A stretch of DNA of 32,286 nt from Bacteroidota bacterium (GTDB lineage Bacteria; Bacteroidota; Bacteroidia; Bacteroidales; UBA932): NCBI GenBank assembly GCA_029567375.1, contig JAKQLB010000263.1, positions 1 through 32,286 on the forward strand, written 5' to 3'. Of the stretch, positions 21,916 to 32,286 are shown one piece after another. Under the pieces are notes generated by a model that saw only the letters and a list, made by a program, of their open reading frames with translations, ran no database searches and was not told the DNA's origin. The position numbers and the translations under genes were made by a program. The number at the start of each line of letters is the position of its first letter. Positions within the stretch are counted from its first letter, which is position 1.

Positions 21916-22365
21916 ATGGCTTTGGAAAAACAGATCCAGGAAGATCTTAAGGCTGCCATGTTTGCAAAGGATGCAACTGCCCTGGCCTCCATAAGGGGGA
22001 TCAAGGCAGCCATCATGCTGGCAAAAACAGCGGCAGGTGCATCGGACGAACTTACCGATGCCGACATTATCAAAATCATTCAGAAACTGGTAAAGCAGCG
22101 CAAAGAGAGCGCAGCCATCTACACCGAGCAGTCACGTCCCGAACTTGCCGAAGCGGAGTTGGCCGAGGCTGCAATTATGGAGAAATATCTCCCCGTGCAG
22201 TTGAGCGAAGAAGAGGTTGAAGAGGCTATCAAAAAGATAATTGCCCAGGTCGGGGCACAATCGCCGGCCGACATGGGCAAAGTCATGGGAGTGGCCACCA
22301 AAGCCCTTGCAGGGCAGGCAGATGGCCGTCTTATTTCAACAATTGTAAAGCGGCTGCTTTCATAG
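21916..22365 (+). CDS. YqeY/GatB-tail domain protein
   Basis: 149 residues, all helical, matching the YqeY family related to the tRNA-binding tail of GatB: LEKQIQEDLKAAMFAKD, IIQKLVKQRKESAAIYTEQSRPELAEAE, EKYLPVQLSEEE and the C-terminal DMGKVMGVATKALAGQADG. YqeY proteins probably bind tRNA or aminoacyl-tRNA complexes, but their exact job is not settled. No gatCAB genes are in the window. Its last 35 bases overlap the end of mrp on the other strand, and both C-termini look complete. Confidence 0.9.
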   Translation: MALEKQIQEDLKAAMFAKDATALASIRGIKAAIMLAKTAAGASDELTDADIIKIIQKLVKQRKESAAIYTEQSRPELAEAELAEAAIMEKYLPVQLSEEEVEEAIKKIIAQVGAQSPADMGKVMGVATKALAGQADGRLISTIVKRLLS

Positions 22366-23236
22366 CTTCAAAGAGAGGTCCGTCTTGGAGTGCGGCGGGA
22401 TTGCCTTCGTCGCCTCCCTCACGGATACTTTGTACTAATGGAACCTGTCCCAGTAGGGGCAGGTTATATTTTTCTGCCATTGCTTTGCAGCCATCTTTTC
22501 CGAAGATGTAATATTTGTTCTGCGGCAGTTCTGCAGGAGTAAACCAGGACATATTCTCTATAATGCCGTAGATATGCTTGTTGACATTTTCATTTCTGAA
22601 AAGATTGACGCCTTTTTCCACGTCTGTAAGGGCGACAGCTTGTGGAGTGCTGACAATGATTGCTCCATCCAGCGGAATGTCATGTACCAATGAAATGTGA
22701 ATATCTCCTGTTCCCGGAGGCAGGTCTACCAGCAAAAAGTCCAGCTTACCCCATTTTACCTGAAGGATCATCTGTTTGAGGGCGTTGCAAGCCATCGGGC
22801 CGCGCCAAATAAGTGCCTGTTCGGGTCGGGCGAAATAGCCTATAGACATCCATTTCACACCGAATTTTTCTATCGGAAGGATAATTTCGGTGCCATCTTC
22901 GATATACTGGCCATAATCTTCGACAAGGTTGCCTTGGGCGTCATAAATTTCGACTCCGGGTGTTTGTCCTTCGGTACCGGTCATTTTTGGCACTGAAGGG
23001 CCGTAAACGTCGGCATCGGCCAGGCCCACCTTGTAGCCCATGCGGGCAAGGGCAATCGCCAGATTGACCGCGACGGTGGATTTGCCTACGCCACCTTTGC
23101 CGGAGGCTATGGCAATAATTTTATCTACATCAGTAAGTTGCTTCTCGTCCAGGTCGAGAATGGTTTTTTTCTTTTGCGGCTCCTTTTTGGGAGGATTGGG
23201 ATTGTAGGGACCCTTGATATTGTAAGGATTTGTCAT
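22331..23236 (-). CDS. mrp: Mrp/ApbC-type P-loop ATPase (iron-sulfur carrier family)
   Basis: 301 residues. Mrp/NBP35 ATPases carry and deliver Fe-S clusters in the cytosol. The deviant Walker A GKGGVGKST, DADVYGPSVP, WRGPMACNALKQMI and LVDLPPGTGDIHISL are clear. Two usual features are missing: the N-terminal MIP18-like (DUF59) domain of many bacterial Mrp proteins is replaced by a short Pro/Lys-rich leader (NPPKKEPQKKK), and the C-terminal CxxC cluster motif is absent, with FTPAELPQNKYYIF at the expected place. It starts at the ATG at 23236. The leader upstream consists mostly of five TAGTNNN heptamers. Confidence 0.92.
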   Translation of the reverse strand: MTNPYNIKGPYNPNPPKKEPQKKKTILDLDEKQLTDVDKIIAIASGKGGVGKSTVAVNLAIALARMGYKVGLADADVYGPSVPKMTGTEGQTPGVEIYDAQGNLVEDYGQYIEDGTEIILPIEKFGVKWMSIGYFARPEQALIWRGPMACNALKQMILQVKWGKLDFLLVDLPPGTGDIHISLVHDIPLDGAIIVSTPQAVALTDVEKGVNLFRNENVNKHIYGIIENMSWFTPAELPQNKYYIFGKDGCKAMAEKYNLPLLGQVPLVQSIREGGDEGNPAALQDGPLFEAMKAAALQLLK

Positions 23237-23237
23237 T

Positions 23238-23272
23238 TAGTGTGTAGTGTGTAGTATGTAGTGGGTAGTTGG
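23238..23272 (+). repeat. Array A: five tandem heptamers TAGTNNN
   Basis: Five contiguous 7-base units, all starting with TAGT; the first two are identical (TAGTGTG). It lies one base beyond the mrp start codon, inside the predicted mrp 5' leader on the opposite strand. Its last two units match array B in inverted orientation. Confidence 0.85.
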
Positions 23273-23284
23273 TTAATAATTGCA

Positions 23285-23292
23285 CAAAGTTA
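23285..23292 (-). promoter_or_regulatory. Predicted -7 element for mrp
   Basis: Reads TAACTTTG on the minus strand (TAnnTTTG), 48 bases before the mrp ATG. If used, the mRNA leader would be nearly all heptamer repeat. Confidence 0.45.
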
Positions 23293-23385
23293 ATAAAGAA
23301 AAGACGAACAACAAGGAGAAAAAATATGCAAAAAATATTGATTGGAAAGGTTATGCTATTGGTGATATCCAATCAAATTGTTACG

Positions 23386-23393
23386 TATATTTG
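23386..23393 (+). promoter_or_regulatory. Predicted -7 element for the GNAT gene
   Basis: Reads TATATTTG (TAnnTTTG), 21 bases before the ATG at 23415. It supports that start over longer in-frame extensions. The -33 region is weak. Confidence 0.5.
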
Positions 23394-23414
23394 TGCCCAC
23401 AAAATAATTTATTC

Positions 23415-23954
23415 ATGGAATTTTTACGAGTTGATATTGAAAACTCTGAACGATGGGATAAAGTTTGGGAGCTGTATGAGGCCAGTTTTCCCATAGCCGA
23501 ACTGCGAAAAAAGAAAGACCATTTGCGTGCATGTCAAGACCCATATTTCTTCCCGATTTCGGTATGGGAAGGAAATCAATTGATTGGTATTCTATTTTAT
23601 TGGGAGTGGCCCACATACCGCTATTTGGATTATTTAGCCGTTTTGCCCGAGTTGCGTGATCATGGTTACGGCTTTCAGATGTTGCAACACCTTCGCGATA
23701 CGGAACATAAGGTTATCTTGGAAATTGATCCGCTCACTGACGAACAATCCGTACGTCGTTTGCATTTTTACGAACATGCAGGATATACCCTCACTCCTTA
23801 TCGGTTTTCCCTCGCTTACCGGTTGGATGCGGAACCGCAGGAACTGCTTATCATGAGTTCTCCCGAGATGATTACCAAGGAGCAATACAACGATTTCCTT
23901 GACTTTATTGGAGAACACGTAATTTTATATTGCGAAAAGGAAGAAGCGCAATAA
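23415..23954 (+). CDS. GNAT-family N-acetyltransferase
   Basis: 179 residues. The acetyl-CoA-binding core is visible: a hydrophobic strand YLDYLAVLPELRDHGYGFQML carries the conserved V-x-P-E-x-R-x-x-G-x-G loop, and LHFYEHAGY gives the C-terminal motif. The substrate is unknown. The frame is open back to 23280, but the ATG at 23415 follows a predicted promoter and is the sensible start. It is the only plus-strand gene between mrp and aspS, and heptamer arrays A and B flank it in inverted orientation. Twelve of its first 22 leucine codons are TTA/TTG, which may point to foreign origin. The C-terminal part is Glu/Lys-rich. Confidence 0.85.
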   Translation: MEFLRVDIENSERWDKVWELYEASFPIAELRKKKDHLRACQDPYFFPISVWEGNQLIGILFYWEWPTYRYLDYLAVLPELRDHGYGFQMLQHLRDTEHKVILEIDPLTDEQSVRRLHFYEHAGYTLTPYRFSLAYRLDAEPQELLIMSSPEMITKEQYNDFLDFIGEHVILYCEKEEAQ

Positions 23955-23963
23955 GAACTTCCA

Positions 23964-24021
23964 CCCCGCACTTACTCCAAACTTATCTGACCCCCAACTA
24001 CTCACTAGAGACTAAGAACTA
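23964..24021 (-). repeat. Array B: degenerate heptamer array next to the aspS stop codon
   Basis: Four clear 7-base units of form NNNACTA on the plus strand (23994-24021), i.e. TAGTNNN on the minus strand, where the first unit begins with the aspS stop codon TAG. To its left (23964-23993) 7-base periodicity continues in degenerate form, starting CCCCGCACT and including CTCCAAACT, both shared with array D. Confidence 0.75.
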
Positions 24022-25782
24022 ATTTTTAGCGGTGCTTTTTAGGAAAAGTTCCGCCATCTGTGTGTCGTCAATCTTCGAAGGGGCATCGCACATCACATCC
24101 CTGCCGGTATTGTTTTTGGGGAATGCGATGAAATCCCTGATGGTTTCCTGTCCGCCGAAAAGGGCGCAGAGACGGTCAAATCCAAAAGCGATACCGCCGT
24201 GAGGGGGAGCTCCGTATTTGAATGCATCTATCATGAATCCAAACTTATAGAGATACTCCTCTTCACTCATTCCGAGTACCTCGAACATCCTTTTCTGGAT
24301 ATTGGAATCAAAGATACGGATGGATCCGCCGCCGAGTTCGGTACCGTTGAGAACAAAGTCGTAGGCATTGGCTGCGACCTGCTCCAGATCTTCCTTGTGA
24401 TTGCTGTAAAATTTCTCCAAATCCTCAGGCTTGGGAGAGGTGAAGGGGTGGTGCATTGCATAAAAACGCTTTGTCTCTTCATCCCATTCGAGCAAAGGGA
24501 AATCGTATACCCACAAAGGAGCAAACCGGTCGGGACGGCGAAGTCCGAGACGGTTACCGAGTTCGATACGGAGAGTGCCGAGAGCCACCTGAGTTTTCTT
24601 TTGCTTCCCCGCCATGATAAATATCATATCACCTTTATTTGCACCCATATCGTCTGCGAGAGCCTGTAGTTCTTCTGCTGAGAAAAATTTGTCGATAGAG
24701 GATTTTATACCCTCTTCGCTCACTCTGATATAGATAAGTCCCTTTGCACCCACCTGGGGCCTTTTAACCCACTCGGTAAGCTCGTCAATCTGCTTGCGTG
24801 TATAAGAGGCGATACCTTCCACTACTATCCCACCAATGTAAGGTGATGAATCGAATACGACAAAGTCGTGTCCCTTGACTTTATCGGTGATCTCCCGGAT
24901 CTTCATTCCAAATCGGATGTCGGGTTTGTCGGAGCCGTAGTATCTCATGGCATCTGCATAACTGATGCGGGGAAACTGCTCTTTAAACTCCACTTTAAGC
25001 ACACTCTTGAAGAGATGTTTCATCAAATCCTCGAAAGTGTTGAGCACGTCCTCACGTTCCACAAATGACATCTCGCAGTCAATCTGTGTAAATTCCGGCT
25101 GGCGATCGGCACGCAAATCCTCATCCCTGAAACAGCGCACAATCTGAAAATATCTGTCATATCCCGCCACCATCAGCAGCTGTTTGTATTGCTGGGGACT
25201 CTGTGGGAGTGCGTAAAATTCGCCCGGGTGCATACGGCTCGGCACTACGAAGTCACGTGCCCCCTCAGGGGTTGATTTGATCAGAAAAGGGGTCTCTATT
25301 TCGATGAAGTTGCGGCCATCAAGGAAGTTGCGTGTCTCGTGAGCGAGCTTGTGACGAAGTGTAAGAGCACGTTTTAGGGGGTTACGTCTCAGGTCGAGAT
25401 AACGATATTTGGCCCTGATCTCTTCGCCTCCGTCCGACTCGTCTTCGATGGTGAAGGGAGGGATTGTAGCCTCGTTGAGGATGTTGAGATGGGTGAGTTT
25501 AATCTCGATATCTCCTGTGGGAATACGGGGATTTTTGCCCTGACGCTCCTCTACTATGCCTGTAACCTGGATCACATATTCGCGTCCGAGGCCGGCTACT
25601 TTTTCGTTAAGTTCACTTGATGATGACTCGTCAATTACCACCTGAGTGATGCCGTAGCGATCTCTGAGGTCTATGAAGCTCATACCGCCCATTTTGCGGT
25701 TTTTTTGAACCCAACCGGCAAGAGTTACGGTTTGGCCGGCATTTTCAAGCCTCAGTTCGCCACAAGTGTGTGTTCTATACAT
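24019..25782 (-). CDS. aspS: Aspartyl-tRNA synthetase
   Basis: 587 residues, the normal bacterial length. It charges tRNA-Asp. The N-terminal OB-fold anticodon domain contains [21 protein letters not shown]; the class II catalytic core shows motif 2 with [18 protein letters not shown] and motif 3 with [15 protein letters not shown]; the bacteria-specific GAD insertion lies between. Whether it is discriminating or also charges tRNA-Asn cannot be decided here. It starts at the ATG at 25782, 6 bases after the SGNH lipoprotein gene, in a cluster ychF-SGNH-aspS. The stop codon TAG is the first trinucleotide of heptamer array B. Confidence 0.97.
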
Positions 25783-25788
25783 ATAATT

Positions 25789-27138
25789 TTATTCAAAATT
25801 GGGGTCTAAAATAATCAATCTGTTGCCTTCAGCAAGTTTTTTTGCCCATATAAAATAGCCCGTGGCACTAAGATGAATACCATCCGTGGTGTAGGCATCG
25901 GCAAGATCTCCGTTGGCATCACTCAAAAGCGATGCGATATCAAGATAGATATATCCATATCTGTCTTTTGCGGCATCAAGGAGTTTGTTGAGTTCGAATA
26001 TTCTCTGGTTGTTGCCTTCGTAGAATTTTGTTTTAGGATTGAGAGGTAGAACACTCTGCACATAAATGAGAGCATTGGGCATCTCTTCCTTGAGCTTTTT
26101 GATAAGTGATTCATATTTAGCCCATATTTCGGAAACCGGAAGCTCCTGTTCGTTTAGAAGGTCATTGGTCGAGGTCATCAGGAATATTTTATTGGCATTT
26201 TCATCGGCAATCTCATCCACTCTATCTATGATACCTTCGATAACATCTCCGCTGATACCGCGGTTAAGAATGTTGAGGAAGGGGAAAAGTTCTTTCCAGG
26301 GAGCATTATTGGTGAGGCTGTTGCCTAGCATTATTATTGACGACTCTTCGCTGTTGGGTAGTGAGCGGAAGATGGAAAGACGGTGGTTGTAGTGATCAAA
26401 TCTTTCGGCTTTTACTTCTTTTTCCTGCGCTTTGTTGAGGGCAGTCAGACCTATAAAGGGTTCGATGGCTTTTGCGTATGCCTCGTAACCGGCTCCATTG
26501 AGCAACATACCATTCCAACTATAAGCGGGATTGATGGCTCCGCTTTCATCGGTAAGCACAGTTGCCATATCGATAAAAGTAAAGCCGGTTTCCTCGGCAG
26601 ATTCGGCAAGTGAATTATTTAGCTCTGCGGTCTGTGCCACCTGTTCGGCAGTCATCTCTCCCAGAGGGGTGACTCCGATATAATAAATGAGACTTACGGG
26701 GGAAACCTCCTTTATGAGGCCGCAAATTTCAGAAATGTGTTCGAGAATAACAGCGTTATCATCTCCGTGCATAATGTCCCTTGCGCCCGCGCTAAGGAAG
26801 ATTTTTTTGGGTTGGGCTTTGGCAATACCGCCGATTCTATAGCGAAGATGTTCGGTGCCGTCATATGTAATGCCTCTGCCGATAACTTTGACCGATCCGA
26901 AAAAATCACTCCACATACCCCTATCTATGAAGTCGTCACCGACCAGCACGATGCAAGACGTGTCTATCGGTAATTCGGCGTACAATGTATGCTTTTCAAG
27001 GAAATAGGGTTGATTGGTGTACCAGAAGGGCTCCACAGCCGTCTCCTTTTTACAGGAAGTGGCGAATGTCACTGCGACTAGTGTCGCAAGGGTCAATAGA
27101 AATAATTTTTTTCTCATTTTATCATTGAATTTTGTCAT
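25789..27138 (-). CDS. Two-domain SGNH/GDSL hydrolase, first domain inactive, probable lipoprotein
   Basis: 449 residues with a lipoprotein-like signal (LATLVAVTFATSC, Cys29). Two SGNH folds follow in tandem. The C-terminal one is intact: LGNSLTN with S274, the block IV-like TSTNDLL, and DGIHLS with D419 and H422, as in acetylesterases and GDSL lipases. The N-terminal one keeps the fold signs (VLVGDDF, SAGARDIM, NGAGYEAYAKAI) but has Asp69 where the serine should be and no Asp-x-x-His. The substrate is unknown; deacetylation of a glycan is one option. The ATG at 27138 overlaps the ychF stop (TAATG); the ATG at 27117 gives a shorter signal peptide and is an alternative. Confidence 0.87.
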   Translation of the reverse strand: MTKFNDKMRKKLFLLTLATLVAVTFATSCKKETAVEPFWYTNQPYFLEKHTLYAELPIDTSCIVLVGDDFIDRGMWSDFFGSVKVIGRGITYDGTEHLRYRIGGIAKAQPKKIFLSAGARDIMHGDDNAVILEHISEICGLIKEVSPVSLIYYIGVTPLGEMTAEQVAQTAELNNSLAESAEETGFTFIDMATVLTDESGAINPAYSWNGMLLNGAGYEAYAKAIEPFIGLTALNKAQEKEVKAERFDHYNHRLSIFRSLPNSEESSIIMLGNSLTNNAPWKELFPFLNILNRGISGDVIEGIIDRVDEIADENANKIFLMTSTNDLLNEQELPVSEIWAKYESLIKKLKEEMPNALIYVQSVLPLNPKTKFYEGNNQRIFELNKLLDAAKDRYGYIYLDIASLLSDANGDLADAYTTDGIHLSATGYFIWAKKLAEGNRLIILDPNFE

Positions 27139-28241
27139 TATACATTGAAAAGGAAGTGCATTATGTCGCCATCTTGCACCACATACTCTTTGCCTTCGCT
27201 GTTGAGTTTGCCGGCAGCGCGGCAGGCAACCTCTGATCCCAGTGCAACGAAGTCATCATATTTTATAACCTCTGCACGGATGAATCCTTTCTCGAAGTCG
27301 GTATGGATAACTCCGGCAGCCTTTGGTGCCTTATCTCCCTTTTTGATGGTCCAGGCCTTCAATTCGGGCCCTCCTATAGTGAAAAAGGTTTGCAGATTGA
27401 GCAGAGAATAGGCCGATTGTATCAAACGCACTACTCCGGAAGTTTCGAGGCCGATCTCCTGCAAAAACATCTCTCTTTCTTCAAAGCTTTCCAACTCTGC
27501 AATCTCGGATTCAATTTCGGCGGCAATCACCAGTATTTCGGCATCTTCGCCTTTAATGGCTTCACGTACCCTCTCCAAATAGGCGTTTCCTGATGCGGCA
27601 GAGGCTTCGTCCACATTGCAGACATACATTACGGGTTTGTTGGTGAGAAGAAAGAATTCTTTCGCAATCTTAGCATCCTCTGCATTCTCAATCACTACTT
27701 CACGGGCATTGCGCCCCATTTCCAGTACTTCTTTATATCTGAACAGCAGATCTAGAACTTTTTTGGCGTGCTTGTCGCCGCCTGACTGAGCTTGTTTCTC
27801 AACCTTTACAATACGGTTGCTGACCGTCTCCAAATCCTTAATCTGGAGTTCTATATCTACAATTTCCTTGTCTCTTACCGGATTTACGCTGCCGTCCATA
27901 TGGACCACATTTGGGTCGTCAAAACAACGTAGTACATGCAGAATTGCATCCGTTTGGCGTATATTGGATAGAAACTGGTTGCCGAGTCCTTCACCCCTGC
28001 TTGCTCCCTTTACAAGTCCCGCAATATCCACGATTTCCACCGTAGCGGGTACTACGCGCGGTGGTTTTGCCATATTTGCGAGAACTGTCAATCTCTCGTC
28101 CGGAACGGTGGTAAAACCAATATTGGGCTCTATCGTGCAAAAAGGGAAATTGGCCGCCTGTGCTTTTGAGGAGCTGACACAGTTGAAAAGGGTTGACTTT
28201 CCGACATTTGGCCGTCCTACTATTCCATATCTGAATCCCAT
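27138..28241 (-). CDS. ychF: Ribosome-associated ATPase YchF (OLA1 family)
   Basis: 367 residues, standard length. YchF is an Obg-related NTPase that prefers ATP and binds ribosomes; it affects stress responses. Visible are G1 GRPNVGKST, G3 DIAGLVKGASRGEGLGNQF, the altered G4 region YVCNVDE (NxxE-type in place of NKxD, as in the family), a coiled coil and the C-terminal TGS domain ending in YVVQDGDIMHFLFNV. The start ATG at 28241 lies 28 bases from a predicted -7 element. The stop overlaps the start of the SGNH gene, so the two are probably coupled. Confidence 0.96.
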   Translation of the reverse strand: MGFRYGIVGRPNVGKSTLFNCVSSSKAQAANFPFCTIEPNIGFTTVPDERLTVLANMAKPPRVVPATVEIVDIAGLVKGASRGEGLGNQFLSNIRQTDAILHVLRCFDDPNVVHMDGSVNPVRDKEIVDIELQIKDLETVSNRIVKVEKQAQSGGDKHAKKVLDLLFRYKEVLEMGRNAREVVIENAEDAKIAKEFFLLTNKPVMYVCNVDEASAASGNAYLERVREAIKGEDAEILVIAAEIESEIAELESFEEREMFLQEIGLETSGVVRLIQSAYSLLNLQTFFTIGGPELKAWTIKKGDKAPKAAGVIHTDFEKGFIRAEVIKYDDFVALGSEVACRAAGKLNSEGKEYVVQDGDIMHFLFNV

Positions 28242-28268
28242 GAATAAACTTATTATTAATCCAAACTA

Positions 28269-28276
28269 CAAAAGTA
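28269..28276 (-). promoter_or_regulatory. Predicted -7 element for ychF-SGNH-aspS
   Basis: Reads TACTTTTG on the minus strand (TAnnTTTG), 28 bases before the ychF ATG. No convincing -33 was found at 17-21 bases. Confidence 0.45.
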
Positions 28277-28306
28277 GTAATTATTTGTTTATATTGGCGC
28301 TCAAAC

Positions 28307-28313
28307 AAGGAGG
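28307..28313 (+). promoter_or_regulatory. Strong Shine-Dalgarno site before the nuclease/phosphatase gene
   Basis: AAGGAGG, 6 bases before the ATG at 28320. This is unusually strong for a Bacteroidales-like genome and decides the start against the GTG at 28317, which would be only 3 bases away. Confidence 0.7.
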
Positions 28314-28319
28314 TATGTG

Positions 28320-29342
28320 ATGAGAGAGTTGTTATGGGGCGTTCTGCTCATTTTCGCAGTTCCGTTTCAGGAACCTGTCCAACAAGAAGAAATCAGAGTG
28401 ATGTTTTGGAATGTAGAGAATTATTTTGACCCCTTCGACGATGAAAAAACGGATGATGATGAGTTTGTCTATGGGGGTCGGTATGGGTGGTCGTGGAAGC
28501 GTTTTTTGCGTAAGCGCAATGCCATTGCCAAGGTGATCGCCTCTTCTGCAGATGTACTCGGAGGTTGGCCGGATCTGGTGGCTTTGTGTGAGGTGGAAAA
28601 CAGGATGGTGCTCCGCCAGCTTACGGAGCAGACACCTCTGGTACGTTTGGGCTATGATATTGTGCACTACGACTCGCCTGACCTGCGTGGTATAGATGTG
28701 GCGCTGCTTTATCGCAAGGAGCGGTTCAGAGTATTGAGCTCAAGAGCAGTGGGAGTATCTCTTCTCGACAGTTCCGCTACGCGCGACATTTTGTATGTAT
28801 GTGGCATTCCGCTTCCAGGTGAGGAAGTTGCGGATACGCTCCATCTTTTTGTCAATCACTGGCCCTCAAAACAGAGTGATGATTCAGACCTCTCTCCGCG
28901 AAGAATGGCCGCTGCATATGCCTTACGGGAAGCAATAGATTCAGTGCGGGCCATTTTGCCGGAGGCGTCAATTCTAATAATGGGCGATTTCAACGACACT
29001 CCGGATTCCCGTATTTTGACTGAATTTTTACGGGATATGGAGTTGTGTACTCCGACAGCCGATCCGGCGGCAGAGGGGTTGGGTTCCATTAAATACAAAG
29101 GTATTTGGGAACTTATAGATCAATTTTTTCTTACTGAAAATCTTTTCAATAGGATTGTACACCGGGAAAATGGTGCTCTAATGCATCTCTTCGCTCCCGC
29201 TTTTTTGCTGGAGGAGGATAAAGAGTTTCTCGGGCAAAAGCCCAGACGCACATTTATCGGACCTCGATACAACGGAGGGGTGAGCGACCACCTTCCGATT
29301 TTGCTGCGATTGCAGCGAAAAATGCATATATTTGCACAATGA
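28320..29342 (+). CDS. Exported endonuclease/exonuclease/phosphatase-family protein
   Basis: 340 residues. A short signal-like N-terminus ([17 protein letters not shown]) suggests export. The DNase I-like phosphodiesterase fold is shown in order by [12 protein letters not shown] (metal-binding Asn), ALCEVEN (metal Glu), FVNHWPSK (catalytic His), LIMGDFND (Asp/Asn) and SDHLPILL (final Asp-His pair). The substrate could be nucleic acid, a phospholipid or a sugar phosphate. Its stop overlaps the thyA start by 4 bases (ATGA), which would fit nucleotide scavenging, but this is inference. It is divergent from ychF. Confidence 0.87.
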
Positions 29343-30133
29343 AACAGTATCTTGACCTGCTCGAACATATAATGCGGAACGGCACTGACAAGAGCGACCG
29401 CACCGGTACAGGCACCCGGAGCATCTTCGGCTATCAAATGCGCTTTGACCTCAATCAGGGTTTTCCGGCGCTGACCACCAAAAAACTTCATCTGAGATCG
29501 ATTATCTACGAACTTCTGTGGTTTATTGCCGGAGATACGAATATTCGCTACCTCAACGAAAATGGAGTGACCATTTGGGATGAATGGGCAGATGACAACG
29601 GAGATTTAGGGCCTATTTACGGTCACCAGTGGCGCAGCTGGCCTGCTTCAGACGGAGGTACCATCGACCAGTTGACTGCGCTTGTCGAATCGCTTAAGAC
29701 CAATCCCGACTCGCGCCGCCATATTGTTTCGGCCTGGAATGTGGCGGAGGTCAAAAAAATGGCGCTTCCGCCGTGCCACGCGCTTTTTCAGTTTTATGTG
29801 GCAGGCGGAAAACTCTCATGCCAACTCTATCAGCGCAGTGCGGACGTATTTCTTGGGGTACCATTCAATATTGCATCTTATGCGTTGCTGACCATGATGC
29901 TGGCGCAGGTATGCGGTTATCTCCCCGGAGAGTTCATCCATACCTTTGGCGATGCCCATATCTATCACAACCATTTTGAACAGGTGGCCTTGCAGCTTTC
30001 CAGAGAGCCGCGTCCGCTCCCTATGATGCTAATCAATCCCGACAAGAAAGACCTCTTCAGTTTTGAGTATGAAGACTTCACTCTCGAAGGATACGGTCCT
30101 TACCCCGGAATAAAAGCCCCAATAGCCGTATGA
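29339..30133 (+). CDS. thyA: Thymidylate synthase
   Basis: 264 residues, identical in length to E. coli ThyA. It methylates dUMP to dTMP with methylene-tetrahydrofolate, giving dihydrofolate. The nucleophilic Cys is in [13 protein letters not shown], followed by [24 protein letters not shown] and [13 protein letters not shown]. The N-terminal [19 protein letters not shown] holds the phosphate-binding Arg. It overlaps the gene before and the folA gene after by 4 bases each (ATGA), so translation is likely coupled. FolA recycles its dihydrofolate product. Confidence 0.98.
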
Positions 30134-30663
30134 GCAGAGCACCCGTCATCTCCCTTATTGCTGCCGTTGCAACGGATGGAGCCATAGGCAAAGGCAACGC
30201 CATGCCCTGGCACATTTCCGAAGATTTGAAGTATTTTAAGCGGGTTACCTTCGGTAAATGCGTCATTATGGGACGCAAGACCTGGGAATCCCTCGGCTGT
30301 CGGCCCCTCCCGGGACGGGATAATATAGTCATCAGCCGTTATCTCTCCACGGATGGCGGACAGGAATCACCCTCGCGGCTGCACTTTGTTCGCTCCCTGG
30401 AGAGTGCGATTGATCTTGCTATGGCTATTGCTACAGAAGCTGGACAGTGTGAAGTGTTTGTCATCGGTGGAGGACATATATATCGGCAGGCATTGGAGAA
30501 GGCTTCGAGAGCCTATATTACTTCCGTACACACAACTATTCCTGACGCTGATGTGCTTTTTCCCACTCTCGATTTGGGGAAATGGCATATTGTCACACGA
30601 AGCGAGATTTTTACAGATGAAAAATCCGGTTTAAACTATGAATTTTTGATATATGAGTGCTAA
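30130..30663 (+). CDS. folA: Dihydrofolate reductase
   Basis: 177 residues. It reduces dihydrofolate to tetrahydrofolate with NADPH. Visible are [22 protein letters not shown] at the start (substrate and Met20-loop region), the SEDLKYFK acidic residue that protonates folate, [25 protein letters not shown] and [13 protein letters not shown] (NADPH diphosphate loop). It is slightly longer than the 159-165 residues usual in bacteria. The start overlaps thyA by 4 bases and its end overlaps the sodium symporter gene by 11 bases. Confidence 0.97.
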
Positions 30664-32020
30664 AAAATCACAGTCGTCAGGTGTCACCGGACGTGACTCG
30701 TTCACCAGTTCATTTGGAGTGCTGGTTGCATTGGCCGGTTCCGCCGTAGGACTGGGCAATCTCTGGAGGTTTCCCTATCTTGTGGGAGAAAACGGCGGTG
30801 CCGCTTTTATCTTTATTTACATTGTTTTTGTTTTTATTCTTTGTCTTCCGATAATGTATTCGGAGTTTATCATCGGACGTAGGAGTCAGAAAAATGTTTT
30901 CGGTGCCTTCAAGGTGCTGGCTCCGGGCTCAAAATGGGGGATTGTAGGTATTTTCTCGGTACTTTCAGCTCTCTGCATCCTATCCTTTTACAGCGTTGTG
31001 GGGGGATGGTCGATAGAATATCTGGCAAAAGCGATTACATTTGATTTTACCCGTGGAAGCGAAGCTAATCTTGACACAATGTTTGGTGATTTTGTTTCCT
31101 CTCCTATAAAGCCTCTCGTTTGGCATGTAGTATTTTTGCTTCTGACAGCACTGGTGGTGATAGCCGGAATCAAGAAAGGTATTGAGAGATATACGAAAAT
31201 GATGATGCCGCTGCTTTTTTTAATGATAATAGTGATTGCCGTGCGTTCGGTCACCCTTGAAGGGGCAAAAGAGGGTATTACTTATCTCTTCAAGCCTGAT
31301 TTTTCCAAAGTGACTTTTGATACTTTACTCTCTGCGCTGGGGCAGGCATTTTTTTCGCTTTCCATAGGCTGTGGTACAATAATGACTTATGCTTCTTATG
31401 TCAGCAAAAGTGAAAACATAGTGAAAATGTCCGCACTTACGGCAGTAGCCGACACCACTTTTGCCATCATTGCCGGTTGTGCAATCATGCCGGCGGTATT
31501 TGCATTCGGAATAAGCCCGGGAGAGGGCCCCGGTCTCGTATTTATTACATTGCCAAAGATTTTTGCTCAAATGCCTCTGGGAGGCATATTAGCCATCGTT
31601 TTCTTTTTTATCCTTCTTATCGCAGCCCTAACTTCCTCAATTTCTTTGCTTGAGGTGGTTGTGGCCTATCTCAAGGAGGAGTTCAAGATGAAGCGTACCA
31701 CAGCTGTAATCATAGGTTCCTCAATTTTCCTTGTAACCGGATGTCTCGCTTCTCTTTCCATGGGGGTGCTTTCAGATGTCAAGATATTTGGAAAGACTTT
31801 CTTTGATCTCTTTGACACCCTTTCTTCCGACTTTTTCTTGACCACATGCGGCCTATTGGTTGTCCTCTTTGTGGGCTGGAGACTCGGCAAGGCCAATGTG
31901 ATGGATGAACTCACCAATAGCGGTACTCTCAAGCTTCCAAAATGGTTCACAGAAATGACATTCTTCATCATTCGTTTCGTCGCTCCGGCAACCATTTTGG
32001 TGATAATGATTTTTGGATAG
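30653..32020 (+). CDS. Neurotransmitter:sodium symporter (NSS/SNF) family transporter
   Basis: 455 residues with about 11-12 membrane helices. The first helix carries the family signature GSAVGLGNLWRFPYLVGENGGAAF, whose backbone forms the sodium and substrate sites in LeuT-type transporters. Bacterial members take up amino acids or related amines with Na+. The substrate cannot be predicted. The start overlaps folA by 11 bases, so it is the last gene of a four-gene overlapping unit. Its stop TAG begins heptamer array C. The nearest terminator is about 200 bases further on. Confidence 0.94.
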   Translation: MSAKKSQSSGVTGRDSFTSSFGVLVALAGSAVGLGNLWRFPYLVGENGGAAFIFIYIVFVFILCLPIMYSEFIIGRRSQKNVFGAFKVLAPGSKWGIVGIFSVLSALCILSFYSVVGGWSIEYLAKAITFDFTRGSEANLDTMFGDFVSSPIKPLVWHVVFLLLTALVVIAGIKKGIERYTKMMMPLLFLMIIVIAVRSVTLEGAKEGITYLFKPDFSKVTFDTLLSALGQAFFSLSIGCGTIMTYASYVSKSENIVKMSALTAVADTTFAIIAGCAIMPAVFAFGISPGEGPGLVFITLPKIFAQMPLGGILAIVFFFILLIAALTSSISLLEVVVAYLKEEFKMKRTTAVIIGSSIFLVTGCLASLSMGVLSDVKIFGKTFFDLFDTLSSDFFLTTCGLLVVLFVGWRLGKANVMDELTNSGTLKLPKWFTEMTFFIIRFVAPATILVIMIFG

Positions 32021-32045
32021 TTTCGAGTATGTAGTGTATAGTTGA
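32018..32045 (+). repeat. Array C: four heptamers of TAGTNNN type starting at a stop codon
   Basis: Four contiguous 7-base units with TAGT (one GAGT) at each start; the first TAG is the stop codon of the symporter gene. Same type and orientation as array A. Confidence 0.7.
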
Positions 32046-32101
32046 TGCAAGAGTTTGATAATTAAGAGCGAAGGTAATAGTTATTGGCAAATTATCATCA
32101 G

Positions 32102-32137
32102 TATATTACAGTTATTTTATTGTTTATCTGTAATATA
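32102..32137. repeat. Inverted repeat in the terminal intergenic region
   Basis: TATATTACAG (32102-32111) and CTGTAATATA (32128-32137), perfect 10-base arms with a 16-base loop. It has no T-tract, so it is not a terminator. It could be a regulatory site of a gene beyond the window or part of a repeat element. Confidence 0.6.
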
Positions 32138-32138
32138 T

Positions 32139-32181
32139 TACGGATAATTGAGTATTTATCCTCAACATGCTACGGATAATT
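32139..32181. repeat. Direct repeat TACGGATAATT with nested GGATAA/TTATCC palindrome
   Basis: TACGGATAATT occurs at 32139-32149 and 32171-32181. Between them TTATCC (32156-32161) pairs with GGATAA on either side, for example GGATAA-N8-TTATCC at 32142-32161. The spacing resembles an operator cluster, but no gene is adjacent in the window. Confidence 0.45.
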
Positions 32182-32183
32182 AA

Positions 32184-32218
32184 CCCCGCACCCCGTACCC
32201 CGCACTGCGTACCTCCAA
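32184..32218 (+). repeat. Array D: five heptamers of CCCCGCA type
   Basis: Five contiguous 7-base units; the first three are CCCCG[CT]A and the last two diverge. CCCCGCACT and CTCCAAACT are both also found in array B in the same order, with a spacer of different length. Confidence 0.75.
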
Positions 32219-32221
32219 ACT

Positions 32222-32254
32222 AAAAATGGGCAGCCGTATGGCCACCCATTTTTG
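32222..32254. terminator. Bidirectional Rho-independent terminator
   Basis: Stem AAAAATGGG (32222-32230) with CCCATTTTT (32245-32253), plus inner pairs GCC/GGC across a symmetric CA/CA mismatch and a GTAT loop. It directly follows array D and could serve the symporter operon or a gene beyond the window on the other strand. Confidence 0.85.
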
Positions 32255-32286
32255 TTTGGAACTTACTCCGACTATCTGAGAATCTT

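Follow-up and report, generated by a model that had tools for sequence, protein, structure and literature searches.

The 32,286-nucleotide stretch analysed here (the window) is contig 17 of the G000 assembly of a gut Bacteroidales (3.38 Mb, 400 contigs), and its intergenic regions hold four arrays of heptamers (A to D), which belong to a family with the main unit TAGTRKG. Such arrays have a period of seven bases, are restricted to one clade of the genus among the genomes tested, are more alike within an array than between arrays, and differ in repeat number at orthologous sites. They are anchored by their 5′ ends at stop codons, in many sense cases supply their own TAG as the stop codon, avoid divergent regions, and keep terminator-like hairpins beyond the array. 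With moderate confidence, we interpret them as intergenic heptamer satellites of a single clade within the genus, which grow by slippage or unequal duplication in steps of about seven bases, probably lie in the 3′ untranslated region (3′ UTR) behind stop codons, and have their G/T-rich, C-poor strand as the coding strand. As heptamer satellites, the TAGTRKG arrays belong to a type of bacterial repeat that is already known, of which they are a new and well-marked case.

Three consecutive TAGTNNN units with up to two mismatches were matched 10 times in the window, against 1.28 expected, and 0 of 100 shuffles attained 10. For the whole G000 genome, the three-unit TAGTNNN pattern gave 148 matches and its reversed control three (overlapping matches counted). 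Period 7 accounted for 40 segments in 516 kb of G000 sequence, much of it picked for arrays, while the other periods from 4 to 19 yielded 0 to 6 segments each, except period 14 with 25. In 180 kb that had not been picked for arrays (window included), there were three segments each of periods 7 and 9 at the lower threshold, and three versus one at the middle threshold. Period-7 arrays are over-represented relative to other periods, as in the intergenic heptamer simple sequence repeats (SSRs) of other bacteria. The original prediction, made from the letters of the window, had suggested one dispersed family with related units, to be checked by genome-wide enrichment and a 7-base autocorrelation; all three were supported. 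Its CCCCGCA heptamers had a mixed outcome: CCCCGCACCCCG (CCCCGCA) alone was not significant within the window (3 matches versus 1.79 expected; 28 of 100 shuffles attained 3), whereas TRCGGGGTRCGGGG gave nine matches in the whole genome and none in the reversed control.

The position of the arrays relative to genes was determined for 84 exact TAGT runs in 1.18 Mb pooled from five genomes, with orthologous arrays counted separately. Five runs without a called upstream gene and two without a called downstream gene were excluded, and arrays C and D of the window, which hold no exact TAGT run, fell outside these counts. Genes were called with a purpose-written simple hexamer caller, and their start codons are approximate. 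The upstream gene was on the same strand in 63 of 79 runs. In 28 of these 63 sense cases, an array TAG was the stop codon of the upstream gene (unit 1: 16, unit 2: 8, unit 3: 4). Within 25 nt of a stop codon we found 48 TAGT-sense and seven ACTA-sense runs, and at 25–100 nt, seven and ten, respectively; modules on the 3′ side of the arrays make the antisense distances too long. In 66 of 77 arrays, the gap at the 5′ end of the G/T-rich strand was shorter than that at the 3′ end (medians of 10 and 155 nt), as compared with 38.6 expected and a maximum of 53 in 2000 random placements. G000 alone gave 26 of 29, and the arrays with a sense upstream gene 58 of 61.

Divergent regions contained only one of 77 arrays, array A of the window, as compared with 114 of 453 intergenic regions, while convergent regions contained 28 of 77 arrays versus 79 of 453 intergenic regions. 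Tandem regions held 33 sense and 15 antisense arrays (p = 0.013). All 11 pairs of neighbouring period-7 segments with opposed orientation were convergent; two of these pairs were orthologous. The orientation relative to genes, which had been left for a check, mainly follows a rule of position and strand: the 5′ end lies at a stop codon, and opposed arrays form convergent pairs. It had also been noted that tandem TAGTNNN units place TAG in all three frames. This property holds, and it matters because 28 of the 63 sense arrays supply the stop codon of their gene. TAGT was the stop of 11.6% of clade genes, in stretches mostly fetched for their arrays, and of 5.6% of genes in G025, the nearest outgroup.

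Terminator-like hairpins were equally common behind arrays and elsewhere (4/29 vs 19/148; 8/20 vs 23/53), which does not support the arrays as terminator replacements. Hairpins behind arrays were mostly more distant from the stop codon. Since the hairpins are kept, mostly beyond the array, the arrays are probably situated within transcripts, in the 3′ UTR. Phase-variable switching appears unlikely from their location behind stop codons.

At the genus level, the sample comprised 40 genomes, of which 39 were examined for three TAGTNNN units (G063 was not among them). The pattern was present in seven of 39 congeners, namely in G000, G005, G012, G014, and G017 (5 of 37), and additionally in G061 and G062. 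In a midpoint-rooted tree of AspS, encoded in the window by a gene that we take from its sequence to be aspS, 30 of the 40 genomes were represented. Six array-bearers formed one clade with a support of 100/99, next to G025 and G035; G012, with only weak paralogous AspS matches, was outside the tree. G025 contained no period-7 array in 352,359 bases, about a sixth of its genome of approximately 2.2 Mb. As the arrays occur on one branch of the genus and the nearest outgroup is clean in the sixth that was read, the cause can be sought by comparing genomes from the two sides of this branch. G009, which does not belong to the clade, carries GAGTTRA heptamers of its own. In G057, the GAGTT pattern in its reversed form, used as a control, had 150 matches (99 + 51), and another repeat of that composition therefore seems to be amplified there.

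Orthologous sites were compared through 146 array-to-genome rows, of which 92 had both flanks and 87 with a gap difference of at most 1000 bases were used. The relative also carried an array in 62 of these 87 comparisons (outgroup included). Orthologous arrays differed by whole units in several cases; the expected repeat-number differences between species are exemplified by a gap of 140 bases, or 20 units, between G000 and G014. At some orthologous sites the unit class differed as well. Among indels of at least 5 bases, where one in seven would be expected by chance to be a multiple of 7, this was the case for 15 of 55 in array intergenics (p = 0.011) and for three of 36 in array-free intergenics (p = 0.47). 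By eye, about eight of the 15 were clear heptamer units. For G000 and its near twin G061, the runs compared had equal unit numbers according to the match lists inspected by eye. Whole-unit length variation between related genomes, a mark of heptamer SSRs, is present here.

For the stop codons, 30 of 48 genes had an orthologue for comparison, and G025 orthologues were available at eight distinct loci. The G025 stops at these loci were TAA (5), TAG (2), and TGA (1), and there was no array in the 40 bases behind them. At L212/L243 and L241, both proteins align up to their final residues, which places the start of the array at the stop codon itself. At L063, the G025 protein is longer.

The units themselves are degenerate. 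Among 372 TAGT units, the tails were GTG (154), ATG (96), and GGG (58), and the main forms of TAGTRKG are TAGTGTG and TAGTATG. For 363 internal units, the modal letter had a frequency of 0.975–0.992 at positions 2–4, 0.893 at position 1, and 0.915 (G) at position 7, but 0.59 and 0.71 at positions 5 and 6. Although this test did not require TAGT in each unit, the chains need a TAGT within 21 bases, which favours positions 1–4. Other modules accompany the TAGT units. Within 150 bases, TRCGGGG-like units (CCCCGCA on the other strand) occurred on the 3′ side of 28 of 78 arrays and on the 5′ side of four; GAGTTYY units on 17 and seven; TTRGC-core modules near few arrays, on five and none, and their reverse complement on six and one. 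The 5′ sides are often coding, which lowers the module counts there. Since the TRCGGGG and GAGTTYY modules favour the 3′ side, the TAGT and CCCCGCA types are parts of one composite array, and not two alternating families. Unit identity within arrays was 0.42–0.46 at lags 1–4, as compared with 0.266 for units pooled across arrays. Adjacent units reached 0.46, and shuffles within arrays had a mean of 0.418 and a maximum of 0.477. Neighbours are barely more alike than these shuffles, and single-unit slippage as the sole growth step was discarded.

A mechanism can be outlined for the satellite interpretation. Changes of about 7 bases at a time, by slippage or unequal tandem duplication, would account for the growth of the arrays, the likeness of units within them, and the unit-step differences between genomes. 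Orientation would act as a filter: TAGT holds a TAG in all frames, while ACTA leaves every frame open, so that proteins would become longer. Translation would in this way explain why TAGT and not ACTA adjoins stop codons. It does not by itself account for the bias of arrays that lie near a stop without touching it; some transcription-linked process downstream of the stop codon, for example R-loops on the G-rich non-template strand, might do so. We infer that frequent 7-base slippage stems from some trait of replication, repair, or R-loop processing that is peculiar to the clade. A function need not be assumed; a role in the 3′ UTR is possible.

Several findings weigh against this interpretation. 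The pooled positional counts are not independent, as they include orthologues from five genomes and most stretches were fetched for their arrays. With an antisense upstream gene the polarity was gone (8 of 16), and array A breaks the position rule, since it sits next to a start codon in a divergent region. The orientation bias persisted off the stop codon, with 20 sense runs (0–24 nt) versus five antisense runs (3–24 nt). Since the bias extends to arrays clear of the stop, filtering by stop codons alone gives an incomplete explanation. Unit variation is concentrated at positions 5 and 6, while position 7, which is free of the chain rule, is G at 0.915; pure slippage with mutation does not predict this. 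Moreover, the proposed mutational cause of the 7-base slippage is conjectural.

Among the alternatives, functional 3′ UTR elements selected behind many genes, either as clustered UAGURKG sites for an RNA-binding protein or as fail-safe stops, are unlikely. The stop-proximal sense position, the conserved core with variation at two positions, the arrays also present in relatives (62 of 87 comparisons), and the location of arrays before terminator-like hairpins agree with such elements. RNA-recognition motif (RRM) proteins were found in six of eight heptamer-bearing genomes of the genus (G005, G009, G012, G014, G017, and G062). However, there was no RRM match in G000 and G061 (assemblies 89% and 86% complete), and RRM matched in six of the other 32 genomes, which are without known arrays and include the unscanned G063. 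The association is broken on both sides, and RRM proteins were dismissed as the trans-factor. Furthermore, two annotated array genes, aspS and a sodium:neurotransmitter symporter (SNF) gene, have no obvious common theme, and the length and even the unit class vary at orthologous sites. We regard it as distinctly improbable that a clade-specific, strand- and stop-directed process writes heptamers behind translated genes, for example through slippage in R-loops formed once ribosomes leave the mRNA, recoding stops to TAG and making exchange sites of convergent arrays. The descent of all arrays from one mobile element inserted at many sites is very improbable. The preferred module order (28/78 vs 4/78 for TRCGGGG-like units), the dispersal of the arrays, and their convergent pairs would fit an element, but the module lengths vary freely, and unrelated families show period-7 arrays with quite other units. 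Inspection of 55 segments by eye, made without a systematic search, revealed no common flanks, terminal inverted repeats, or target-site duplications. Chance or an assembly artefact has practically no probability left. Several contigs of G061 and of G419, a genome of another family, break off in or near arrays, which shows that assembly is indeed impaired at such places; nevertheless, the ratio of 148:3 to the reversed control and the arrays in other clade assemblies, many at orthologous sites, refute it.

A further possibility, for which we see only a slim chance, is that convergent arrays bound sites of accessory-gene exchange through array–array recombination, the arrays serving as movable homology; A–GNAT–B and C–D would be such sites. 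The 11 of 11 convergent opposed neighbours, two of them orthologous, point in this direction, and so does gene content. In G025, G035, and G009, mrp directly follows aspS, with neither arrays nor a GNAT gene. The interval holds GNAT in G000, G014, and G005. In G062, GNAT is replaced by a HigBA-like pair (HTH and HigB-like) that is flanked by a TAGT array on the mrp side and a TAGT-type array on the aspS side. At the site orthologous to C–D, an AAA/DUF4143 gene lies between the arrays in G005, and no gene was called in G062 and G014. Another pair of gene neighbours is 84 bp apart in G005, with two convergent arrays back to back (L243, 4138–4226). The same neighbours enclose 2.5 kb with a putative lipoprotein gene (signal-like start) in G000 (L071, 2757–5268), and 4.2 kb with a similar gene and an insertion sequence (IS)-like transposase in G014 (L212, 1128–5333). 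Near one array in G000 (L051, 3077–4218) are a toxin gene of the AbiEii type and a small gene next to it; the corresponding G005 interval is only 158 bp. Large length differences within the clade affected 11 of 51 array intervals and five of 99 others (p = 0.004). This excess was lost upon conditioning on the shorter side (7/38 vs 8/90, p = 0.14) or restricting the shorter-side length (6/30 vs 7/50, p = 0.54), and was not significant relative to G025 (5/10 vs 7/33, p = 0.11). Many large events occurred in convergent regions, array or no array. Arrays as insertion hot spots were rejected on these grounds, and the association of cargo with arrays is suggestive only.

Heptamer arrays also occur outside the genus. 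Among 80 aspS neighbourhoods of named genomes, mostly Bacteroidota by title and chosen without regard to repeats, we found 33 period-7 segments in 15 loci and 14 period-9 segments in 10. Their period-7 units are quite different from TAGTRKG; the period is therefore more widespread than the unit. Mosaics of many period-7 units were seen at L090, L109, L116, L122, L141, L151, L160, and other loci. Across the order, three TAGTRKG units were present in 10 of 393 genomes. G419 had 227 TAGTRKG matches, and none was found in its own four sampled congeners; on/off switches of heptamer arrays recur. For the stop-codon rule, G419 offered only five runs in the fetched contigs, three of them without a called upstream gene. 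In this genome (L265–L284), period-8 GTTGAAAA runs stand beside TAGTAGG arrays, AGCCAAY heptamers occur as in G000, and several contigs carry arrays at or near their ends. In G059, TAGT-type and other heptamers were observed in six short stretches.

Related repeats have been described in several bacteria. Xanthomonas and Nostoc/Anabaena possess the G-rich heptamers GGGAATC and GGGGA(C/T)T, respectively (PMC4692102). As described there, their 5′ ends lie near open reading frames, the G-rich strand downstream is on the coding strand, convergent pairs are formed, and divergent sites are few, all of which we also found for the TAGTRKG arrays. In contrast, most TAGTRKG copies are without a G run and differ from quadruplex-type units with at least three G; G runs occur only in the GGG variants (58 of 372 units) and in the TRCGGGG module. 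Furthermore, unlike those heptamers as published, the TAGTRKG arrays supply stop codons, combine two to three unit classes in a preferred order, and belong to a different phylum. The TAACTGA direct repeats of Beggiatoaceae, Cyanobacteria, and five Bacteroidetes (PMC4679880) are likewise intergenic heptamers with a patchy distribution across phyla. In some Bacteroidetes, other heptamers accompany them, and a link to rearrangements was suggested in some cases (PMC4679880). In the main genome of that report, TAACTGA is one exact unit found mostly just before start codons, whereas TAGTRKG is degenerate and mostly behind stops; TAGTRKG arrays are not made of an exact unit close upstream of start codons. 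The remark that heptamers are known in cyanobacteria was true but too narrow, since Beggiatoaceae, Xanthomonas, and some Bacteroidetes have them as well (PMC4679880, PMC4692102).

A 2007 study of prokaryotic heptanucleotide SSRs found period 7 to be over-represented and raised the question why bacterial satellites prefer it (as cited in PMC4692102). The (GATAGRA)n repeat of Chloroflexus aurantiacus is a heptamer-derived satellite (PMC6749651), and polymerase slippage related to the length of DNA that occupies the active site has been offered as a cause of the period-7 excess (PMC4692102, PMC6749651). For these repeats, the published passages concerned describe no position rule relative to stop codons, unlike for the TAGTRKG arrays. 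Heptanucleotide repeats are also reported for the cyanobacterium Calothrix (PMC4692102). The tandem period of seven is shared, while the units and the phylum differ from those of the TAGTRKG arrays. The Calothrix repeats are presumably those named STRR. A literature search covering titles and the beginnings of abstracts, outside subscription journals and preprints, returned no earlier description of TAGTRKG or of stop-supplying heptamer arrays. With these arrays, repeat DNA has come to serve as stop codons; they are also possible markers of sites where accessory genes are swapped.

Of the four 7-base arrays named in the original prediction, A and D were clean, B was clean only in its TAGT part, and C was weak alone. 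Array A (23238..23273, plus strand) reads TAGTGTG TAGTGTG TAGTATG TAGTGGG TAGTTGG, and Tandem Repeats Finder reported a clean period-7 array of 4.6 copies at 23238–23269. A single base separates its beginning from the start codon of mrp (22331..23236, minus strand), which encodes a P-loop NTPase of the NUBPL/ParA family. At this edge, G014 and G005 carry other heptamer unit classes, and G062 a TAGT array. Array B (23962..24021, minus strand) consists of TAGTTCT TAGTCTC TAGTGAG TAGTTGG followed by degenerate units, including TGCGGGG. The clean minus-strand TAGT part spans 23997–24021 (two overlapping exact matches), and the degenerate remainder, 23964–23996, contains TGCGGGG-like and GTTTGGAG-like stretches. 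The first TAG of array B is the stop codon of aspS (24019..25782, minus strand), and the GNAT acetyltransferase gene (23415..23954, plus strand) lies between A and B. Array C (32018..32045, plus strand; TAGTTTC GAGTATG TAGTGTA TAGTTGA) had two matches with one mismatch in each. It is backed by its G062 orthologue, where the same stop codon is followed by an exact run of three TAGT units. The first TAG of array C is the stop codon of the SNF family symporter gene (30653..32020, plus strand). Array D (32183..32218, minus strand; AGTTTGGAG GTACGCA GTGCGGG GTACGGG GTGCGGGG) was picked up by Tandem Repeats Finder at periods 7 and 14 at 32183–32213. The TAGT type followed by the CCCCGCA type does occur twice, but the order is better described by strand: with A and C on the plus and B and D on the minus strand, each pair (A/B and C/D) is convergent.

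A search of 22000–32286 against Rfam matched no model at the gathering score. The closest named record to AspS, at 75% identity, in a collection that may lack the records nearest to the window, is from a metagenome genome titled Candidatus Cryptobacteroides. The G000 assembly has 3.38 Mb in 400 contigs, as compared with about 1.9 Mb in its near twin G061 (AspS 100% identical), and may include foreign contigs. The 138 bases between C and D are mostly a 32-base TATATTACGGATAATTGAGTATTTATCC-like repeat of about 2.5 copies at 32102–32181 (Tandem Repeats Finder).

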